From: Anas platyrhynchos
Taxonomy: Eukaryota; Chordata; Aves; Anseriformes; Anatidae
Length of the DNA: 64,000 bases
Reading direction: 5' to 3'
NCBI RefSeq assembly: GCF_047663525.1
Contig: NC_092605.1
Span: 6,634,001-6,698,000 of the forward strand
Positions 43,998-46,900 of the stretch are shown piece by piece. How positions within the stretch are numbered: position 1 is the first letter of the stretch; each line of letters opens with the position of its first letter. A model generated the notes under the pieces. It ran no database searches and was not told the DNA's origin. It saw only the letters and a program-made list of their open reading frames with translations. A program made the translations under genes and the position numbers.

Positions 43998-46900
43998 TTA
44001 TTGAGAATAACTTGCTGGCATTGGGTAACCTATCATAGGAGCAGCACCAGTGGCAGGATATGCATACTGCTGTTGGTTCATGCCATTGTGCATATTTGCA
44101 ATGTTACTTCCATATTGCTGGTCATAGCCATTCTGGTAAGCTCCCGCAGGGTTACCAGCCCTGAAGCCAGCTTGCATGCCTGCAGCTGCAAAACCATTTC
44201 CAAAAGGAGTTCCATTACTGAAACTTTGGGCAGTGTAGGCCCCATTTTGAGCTTTTGCTCCAAAGTCTCTCTTTCCTAGTGCACCATAGGTTCTCTCAAA
44301 ATTCTCCCTCTCTCTAAAACTACTAAATCCACCCCTTTTGCCCGCAGAATATCTGTCACGTCGGTCACCTCGGGAACGACCTATTAAAGAGACAAGACAT
44401 AGTTATATATACATATACACGCACACACGATAGAAACTACATTTCATGTACCACCCAGTGAGTTCAGCTAGTAATGATCTTTTACTTCCTGCCCCAGCAA
44501 GGCAAGTCTACTAGAAAGCTTTCCAGTTACTAACTGGACTCCAGTTAGGTACCCTGAATTATATGAAGACATGCTAGATTCCTTTCTCTAACCACTGTGG
44601 AATCATGCACTCTACTGCTGTAACATGAGCAGCAGCATGAGAACAATGCTCACTGGAAGATGCTCCACAGCACATGGAACACTGGGGGCAGGCAGTTTTG
44701 TTGTTGCTAGTCAAGTCACCAGAACTGCCCAATAAGCTACCTTCCATGTCCATTTTGGGGAGGCTGGAAAGGTAAATTGAGCTTCCAGTTTGTTCTGGGA
44801 AGAAAGCTATGCACCATGCCTGACAACAGCACTTACCTGAACCTCTGTCTTCAATCAACTGAAGCAATTTGGGGTTGATGGCTTGATTAGCCTCCCGAAG
44901 CACAGAGATGAGGTCATTTACTTGCTTAATATTGTTAGGAGTAAAGAATGTGTATGCTGTGCCTGTTTTGGTACTGCGGGCAGTTCGTCCAATTCGGTGG
45001 ATATAGTCCTCTGAGGAGTTAGGGTAGTCATAATTGATGACAAATTTCACATCTTCCACATCTGTAAAGCGTTGCAGTGTGGCAAAAAGCGAGGTACAAA
45101 GTTTTGCACACCACAACAGCCAAATCGAAGATAAACGTTAGACAATAGCACTTTAAATTAAATAATGGCTGCAAAGAACAGTGTTAGAGTTATCCATTTC
45201 TGCATGAATATTGTGGAAGAGAAAGTTATGCACACTCCGTCTGTTCCCGTCTTATCACCCACCCTGTGATCCAAAACCTTACCATAAAGGAGTATGCATT
45301 TGCTTGTCATTCCCAACTCAAGAGTCCCCTTTACAAATCATCAAGTGACATCTGAATGCTTCTTGCAGTAGGGCCACTAAAGCTCACAGCAGCCTCTTCA
45401 TGTGCTCATTTGAGGACCTTAGAGTAAAAACATACAAGGTCCTTCACATACACACTCATCAGAAGCTCAAAAAAAAAGGGCCACACTGCTCGTCTTGCCA
45501 AGACCTTTGAACTGCAGCTGCAAGAAAAACATACCTGTCCCCCAAAAGTCACCAAGTTGTTTTTATGCACTGTGTCTCGTCTAGGCAAGCGCTTCCAAGA
45601 AGCCAGGGTTCACTTGAGAATGTGTCTCTCTCTCTGGCAGGTCTCGACATGACGACTACGTATAGGTGGAGGAACTTCGACTTTCAAAGGCATTTAGAAA
45701 AGCCATTGCTTTCCTGCCCCACTTGCTAAAGTGAGAGGTGGACTTTTTCTCAGATTTCATGTGCCAGTACTCACCAATTTGTACAAGGCTTAGTACATTT
45801 TAAAGCTGCTCTCTCCATTTCATGGTTGAAAAAAAATTTCATTGAACATTGTAATTATTTTCTTCGACATTTCAGCAAACTCACTGAAATTCAAAGACCC
45901 ACAGATCACAGCAGACAGTATGCACAAAACTAACAGTACTGCACCATGGCAAATCATGCAAAGCATGGAGAGAAGAGAAATACCAGGGCAAAGTGAACTG
46001 TGAATGAGACTGCTTATTTCATGAGAGAACAGTTTATGGGGTAGTAGTTTAAAGGATGATCTTTGCCTTTTGAAGATTACTGGCACACAATGCTCTCAGC
46101 TTTCACCTCTCTATTTGACTGGAAGCAGCCAGCCGATCATTTCCACTAGTCCTCCATCCCCCTCGAGTCCTCCGATTGTCATGCCTAGGCCTTGCCACAA
46201 AGACTGCACCTTTATGTGAAGAAAACTTAGAAAAATGCAGAGGTTAAAGAAAGCAATAGACTTTCTTTAAATAACTTTGGGCAACTGGCATTACGAGTTT
46301 TACTAACCTAGACCTCTGGATGCAACATCTGTAGCAATCAGGATTGGTGCTTTTCCATGTTTGAACTCTGTAACACAAGCAACTCTCATCAGTTTCTTCA
46401 TGTATCAAGTAACAAACAGAGCTTACCAAAATTGCTCAAGTACTTACCATTTAGAACCCAGTCTCGTTCCTGCTGACTTTTATCACCATGAATACCCATT
46501 GCTGGCCACCTGACAATACAGAAGATTATCAACTTCAAAACATTCTTTGAGTACTTCCATTAGTCAGTTACCAACAAGTTCTAAACAGCTTCTGGATTTA
46601 ACATCTCAGCTAACACTTGGTGCAGTGTCAGTTTTGGCACCATAGTTTTAAGTGGTCACTCATGAAGTATCAAGAGCATGTTCAGCCTATTGGGGTAGCT
46701 CACTTCATTTCAAGCTACTATTTAGTACTATTTAGACTTACCCATCTCTCCTCATTTTCCTGGTAAGATCATCACATCGTCTTTTGGTTTCCACAAAAAC
46801 TATTGTTTTGTTTTCCTTCTCACTCATGATTTCTTCCATCAGACGAATAAGCCTGTCATGAAGACATAGTAGTTAGAGCTTTCATTACTTACACTATACA

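Follow-up and report, generated by a model that had tools for sequence, protein, structure and literature searches.

Introduction

The DDX5 gene of Anas platyrhynchos is interrupted after helicase motif V by an intron far longer than the others measured in it, which raises the question of whether this intron lowers the output of the gene and, if so, through which of its parts. DDX5 and its paralogue DDX17 are said to compensate for each other, and we know of no cis-element shared by the two genes for their control. A preliminary description of the locus placed two alternative exons in the intron, in CpG- and purine-rich islands with splice-like borders, and suggested that DDX5 might limit its own level through poison exons or produce a short, helicase-defective isoform. 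These proposals are examined here in a stretch of 64,000 nucleotides (the window), in which positions are counted from the first letter and DDX5 lies on the minus strand. Published articles are represented by excerpts of their text and are cited by PMC accession.

Retention of this intron, and the microRNA that it encodes, are already in print. Human DDX5 intron 11 is retained at 8%, and at 12% with 4sU, in HEK293 cells (PMC8668116). A second study validated retention between exons 11 and 12 and terms the intron highly conserved and miRNA-encoding (PMC6538246), and a study of vertebrate granulocytes reports Ddx5 as intron-retaining in all species, the intron itself being unnamed in the excerpt (PMC5688624). 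Ddx5 is also stated to autoregulate through nonsense-mediated decay (NMD) and to control Ddx17 by the same route (PMC3763533).

The DDX5 Gene and Its Intron 11

Exons 2 to 13 (human numbering) span positions 49049 to 43998 and encode a partial protein of 592 residues, which includes the Pfam domains DEAD, Helicase_C, and P68HR and whose nearest solved structures are those of DDX17, DBP2, and DDX5. Intron 11 extends over 1246 nt (46307-45062, minus strand; 1236 nt in human, PMC4807562) between exon 11 (46308..46367), whose 3' end follows motif V (ATDVASRGL), and exon 12 (44837..45061). These boundaries, with 46308 as the last base of exon 11, had been correctly placed in the preliminary description, as had the contrast in length: the 10 other measured introns range from 80 to 456 nt. 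Intron 1, which lies outside the measured set, looks about 1.4 kb long, an open reading frame with a likely start peptide ending at 50489.

Intron 11 is rich in CpG as a whole (18 in 1246 nt versus 4 in 2026 nt for the 10 other introns; Fisher p 5.8e-5). Its observed/expected ratio is 0.33, compared with 0.29 in the exons and 0.05 in the other introns; over its full length, the intron keeps CpG as exons do. Clustering of CpG within the intron is non-significant (6 of the 18 fall inside 126 nt, p 0.22), and the islands as CpG- and purine-rich units were dropped on this ground. What remains of the compositional claim is a GC content of 0.54 in the upstream island (island A) and 0.49-0.50 in the downstream one (island B), both above the 0.40 of the remainder of the intron, together with a purine fraction of 0.62 in island A; island B, at 0.55, is not distinguished by its purines.

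Elsewhere in the window, open frames with immunoglobulin (Ig) domains lie on both strands (13561-20124, minus; 32229-33498, plus). Three of these frames (18308-18673, 32229-32579, and 33004-33495) were compared with Pfam, and all match Ig families; from the synteny near DDX5, we take the frames to belong to PECAM1-like and related receptor genes.

The Exon 12 Acceptor and the mir-3064 Hairpin

The downstream end of intron 11 is occupied by the mir-3064 precursor (45061..45126, minus strand; Rfam RF03840, scoring 76.7 bits where the gathering threshold is 76, E 3.1e-16). The precursor takes up the final 65 nt of the intron and extends one base into exon 12, so that the acceptor boundary (45062/45061) falls inside it. 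The hairpin is stable (fold z -2.47, a stability equalled by 3 of 200 shuffles), and human miR-3064-3p matches it at 21 of 23 positions. Splice sites were scored with approximate position frequencies, and the scores are read against the 12 real acceptors (3.8 to 12.3) and 11 real donors of DDX5. The hairpin-covered acceptor of exon 12, at 3.8, is the weakest of the 12, probably because the hairpin replaces a clean pyrimidine tract.

Chicken gga-mir-3064 has been assigned to DDX5 (PMC6478348), and in heat-stressed rat liver Mir3064 and Ddx5 are both listed, with opposite changes (PMC8871965). In human minigenes, miR-3064 matures independently of splicing and is not counted as a bona fide mirtron; when splicing is blocked, it rises only from 27+/-13 to 47+/-29 (PMC4807562), and so modest a rise leaves competition between cropping and splicing unproven.

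A mir-3064 counterpart was sought in DDX17 of the same genome. Rfam gives none there at the gathering threshold, and the candidate fold at the DDX17 acceptor was rejected as unremarkable (z +1.10). Neither the mir-3064 end of the intron nor the 18-nt element described below has copies in the viral and prokaryotic collections searched, as expected of collections that hold no vertebrate relatives.

Candidate Exons and Their Products

Island A (46107..46209, minus strand) is a candidate decoy or poison exon of 103 nt, or 97 nt if it starts at 46203. From 46209, the phase supplied by exon 11 is open for 35 codons up to a TGA at 46105-46103, and the peptide so added directly after motif V is rich in arginine (8/35) and contains glycine (4/35); in frame, stop codon, and Arg/Gly-rich tail, the preliminary description was accurate. 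It had also let the island end in TGA. This codon runs across the donor at 46107 and would therefore be absent from a cassette exon that uses this donor; such an exon would be 103 nt long, shift the frame, and have its stop in exon 12. Island B (45535..45725, minus strand) is a second candidate decoy exon, whose length is 191 nt if it starts at 45725 and 121 nt if it starts at 45655; the donor that closes it, CAG/GTATGT, is the strongest in the intron.

The borders of both islands are mostly of chance quality by score and by shuffling, contrary to what had been supposed of them. The acceptor at 46209 scores 5.1 and beats 2 of the 12 real DDX5 acceptors, the one at 46203 (-0.4) lies below all of them, and an acceptor as good as 46209 occurs in 300 of 300 dinucleotide shuffles of the intron, with a mean of 7.0 in each. 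The donor at 46107 (AGAGAG/GTGAAA) scores 6.0, which gives island A a pair of 5.1 and 6.0 (acceptor/donor), while island B pairs an acceptor of 4.9 or 5.2, likewise at chance level, with a donor of 9.8. This last site, at 45535, alone is strong: it beats 8 of the 11 real donors, and its equal appears in 18% of shuffles of the intron.

Just beyond island B, the human comparison is confined to the 21 nt of mature miR-5047, which matches at 18 of 21 positions (45503..45523, minus strand). The match begins 12 nt past the last base of the island and covers two of the best-scoring acceptors, with exon-first bases 45517 (8.2, ranked first in the intron) and 45511 (7.9, ranked third). The next best place on either strand of the window reaches 15/21, and 500 shuffles of intron 11 reach at most 16/21. 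The human sequence is printed in PMC5794457 and PMC4383152, and miR-5047 is listed with mir-3064 as one genomic cluster in PMC7663234. A bird miR-5047 hairpin was considered and rejected: two local folds have z +1.31 and +1.42, and in each case 188 of 200 shuffles fold at least as well. The match is accordingly read as conserved splice-site-like sequence and not as proof of a bird miRNA, and this one match, beside its donor, appears to be what backs island B. The strongest donor (exon-last base 45535, 9.8) and the strongest acceptor (exon-first base 45517, 8.2) stand back to back on the minus strand; the gap from GT to AG is 17 nt, too short for an intron, so the two sites are usable only alternatively.

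The modelling covered nine DDX5 products, namely the retained form, six ways of combining islands A and B as cassettes, and two longer forms, and in every one of them the stop lies 191-1466 nt upstream of the last junction. The six cassette combinations stop 191-384 nt before it, beyond the 50-nt criterion for poison exons, and island A as the 103-nt exon (46209/46107) gives the value of 191 nt. Retained intron 11 brings a stop at the second codon in DDX5 and at the fifth in DDX17. Motif VI (HRIGRTAR) is missing from all nine products, so any stable protein made from them would be helicase-defective. A short defective isoform, as once suggested, is thus possible; given the positions of the stops, decay or nuclear detention is likelier, and in these models the early-stop products should be open to either. 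As spliced exons, islands A and B are candidates only.

An 18-nt Element Shared with DDX17

The paralogous intron 11 of DDX17 in the same genome measures 4256 nt (L023:4418-8673). Its own sites are poor by the same approximate frequencies (donor 4.1, acceptor -1.5), which would suit a retained intron. Within the 5' half of island A, which aligns to this intron, lies an 18-nt element, GCAAGGCCTAGGCATGAC (46178..46195, minus strand), that is repeated there with zero mismatches (L023:4624-4641); it stands at intron position 113 in DDX5 and 207 in DDX17. Eighteen is the longest word common to the two introns; shuffling the DDX5 intron 300 times gives words of at most 16. By blastn, the element region matches DDX17 at 20/21 (E 8.4e-4), and a local alignment around GCAAGGCCTAGGCATGAC that takes in the pyrimidine/AG stretch just upstream scores 52, and none of 500 shuffles exceeds 38. 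When DDX5 intron 11 is divided into 20 overlapping tiles, only 46247-46128 stands above its shuffles (z 6.8, 0/100); the other 19, among them the tiles over island B and over the hairpin, range from z -1.2 to 0.8 against DDX17 intron 11. Island B has no counterpart in that intron, nor has the hairpin, so only island A is common to both genes. Through DDX17, it appears to be independently supported as a conserved element.

The coding sequence around the intron is less well kept at this scale. DDX5 and DDX17 agree at 50/62 positions in exon 10, 44/60 in exon 11, and 155/222 in exon 12, and the longest identical runs (8, 8, and 14, respectively) are shorter than the intronic run of 18. In the genome searched (1.26 Gb, 42 contigs), GCAAGGCCTAGGCATGAC with at most one mismatch is found at the DDX17 place only; the searched copy reads N in places, and the window's own copy is missing from the matches. 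A backward control pattern also has one place, so the genome count by itself proves little, and position within the intron is the stronger evidence.

The paralogues have an aligned AG in common, which precedes position 46203 in DDX5 and L023:4611 in DDX17, where it scores 5.1. Counted from it, the element is read in different frames in the two genes; the constraint therefore seems to act on RNA rather than on protein, which argues against a conserved coding exon. A selected protein tail was rejected on the same ground, since only a poorer DDX17 AG (1.8 versus 5.1) yields ARPRHD as in DDX5. Gene conversion limited to the 18-nt element looks unlikely. If the two genes parted in the whole-genome duplications of early vertebrates, the element is very old.

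Part of the element (46188-46180, minus strand) contains GCATG, TAGG, and the palindrome GCCTAGGC. GCATG, presumably the RBFOX core motif, occurs twice in DDX5 intron 11, and TAGG, which we take to be hnRNP A1-like, occurs once. A second common word, CTTGCCTAGAC at 45589, could pair with the element and was set aside: besides the 18-mer, the introns have just two 11-mers in common, about the number expected by chance, and these are not collinear. A SNORD59-like match below threshold (45915-45861, minus strand) contains TGAGTTTGCTG, which is found in DDX17 intron 11 as well, but in a different order; at 21.4 bits against a gathering threshold of 45 (E 0.83), the match is probably due to chance.

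Probable Regulation of DDX5 by Intron 11

With its weak acceptor, its hairpin, its early stops, the 18-nt element that DDX17 also has, and the miR-5047 match, intron 11 is probably the conserved regulated intron of DDX5, in which a weak, hairpin-covered acceptor and a set of decoy sites lead to retention or unproductive splicing and so to lower output. In such a scheme, the acceptor, formed by the mir-3064 hairpin instead of a clean pyrimidine tract, would be spliced slowly. The decoys (island A with the DDX17-shared element and island B with its strong donor) would compete for parts of the spliceosome and favor retention or unproductive inclusion. The resulting products, ending immediately or no more than about 60 codons past motif V, would be held in the nucleus or degraded, leaving less DDX5; if mir-3064 were cropped before splicing, the acceptor would be lost and DDX5 would fall further. 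We infer that the islands act as decoys and that DDX5 or DDX17 protein closes the loop.

The autoregulation envisaged in the preliminary description finds partial support and is for the most part already known, retention being in print (PMC8668116, PMC6538246); that the intron has some regulatory role is well supported. In the excerpts, the published mode is retention plus a miRNA and not a cassette poison exon. The description was thus right to single out a genuinely regulated intron, although some of its reasons do not hold.

A classical poison exon, in which island A, island B, or both are true cassettes whose inclusion is raised by DDX5 and leads to NMD, would account for the shared element within island A, for the 103-nt frameshifting exon that 46209 and 46107 can form, whose stop precedes the last junction by 191 nt, and for the autoregulation stated in PMC3763533. 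The acceptor that it needs is of chance quality at 46209 and worse at 46203, however; passages of the literature that name both DDX5 and poison exons report none for this gene, and the published events at intron 11 are retention. On this evidence, a true cassette seems doubtful. It is quite unlikely that the intron is simply retained and encodes a miRNA, the islands being inert in splicing. Retention is the published event (PMC8668116, PMC6538246), and the weak acceptor and hairpin would be enough to slow splicing; the 18-mer could then be a DNA-level element such as an enhancer, or an RNA-protein site for stability or detention. Yet the DDX17 alignment takes in the pyrimidine/AG stretch upstream of the 18-mer, as a role linked to an acceptor predicts.

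An ordinary intron with splice-like letters that arose by chance, and a coincidental identity with DDX17, would be compatible with the chance-level site scores, with the non-significant CpG clustering (p 0.22), and with the single genomic place of the backward control. Such a coincidence is highly improbable, given that an exact 18-mer recurs in intron 11 of DDX17, in an alignment beyond all 500 shuffles and in a single tile that stands out, and that the miR-5047 match also exceeds all of its 500 shuffles.

Within the favored reading of a regulated intron with decoy sites, the 18-nt stretch hints at an old common switch that lowers both helicases. One tentative form of this idea is that the element is the remnant of a decoy acceptor older than the DDX5/DDX17 split and serves as the cis-site for mutual and self sensing, such that, when DDX5 or DDX17 is high, the decoy would be favored and both messages would be retained and degraded. 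In the excerpted literature, searched by topic and not by sequence and not covering Moore 2011, Rossler 2000, or Barta and Iggo 1995, no mention of an element shared by DDX5 and DDX17 was found, and its novelty is provisional. If the idea is true, it points to a site at which the splicing of an oncogenic helicase might be adjusted.

Comparison with Known Systems

The closest precedent is the intron itself: to judge by its title, the study of Moore et al. 2011 reportedly describes p68/DDX5 intron 11 as evolutionarily conserved, alternatively spliced, and the source of a novel miRNA. Gene, intron, length (1246 nt here, 1236 nt in human), and the position of mir-3064 at the acceptor are the same, and what is added here, as far as that title tells, is the 18-nt element shared with DDX17 and the reading of the islands as weak decoys. 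The ultraconserved poison exons of SR and hnRNP genes, which act by alternative splicing coupled to NMD (AS-NMD), likewise combine an RNA-binding-protein gene, a conserved intronic stretch, and early stops; they differ in that the candidate acceptors of DDX5 are poor and its published event is retention. Decoy exons, in OGT and other genes, promote intron retention, and DDX5 resembles them in having unproductive sites within a retained intron, with the decoy role presumed. As in 5'-tailed mirtrons and miRNAs that overlap splice sites, the mir-3064 hairpin ends at an acceptor; unlike a true mirtron, human miR-3064 matured without splicing in minigenes (PMC4807562).

A further likeness is to the orthologous helicase of yeasts, DBP2/dbp2, by description and not by sequence. 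The S. pombe intron works through Mmi1 binding and decay by the nuclear exosome, whereas we know of no Mmi1 system in birds. The dbp2 intron is poorly spliced and promotes decay, and its position and length are described as conserved up to higher eukaryotes (PMC4695336); in S. cerevisiae, as cited in the same article, the helicase inhibits the splicing of its own intron and so regulates itself. If the stretch shared by DDX5 and DDX17 is a real control site, it offers a concrete target for testing and would tie the vertebrate intron to a yeast intron that limits the same helicase.
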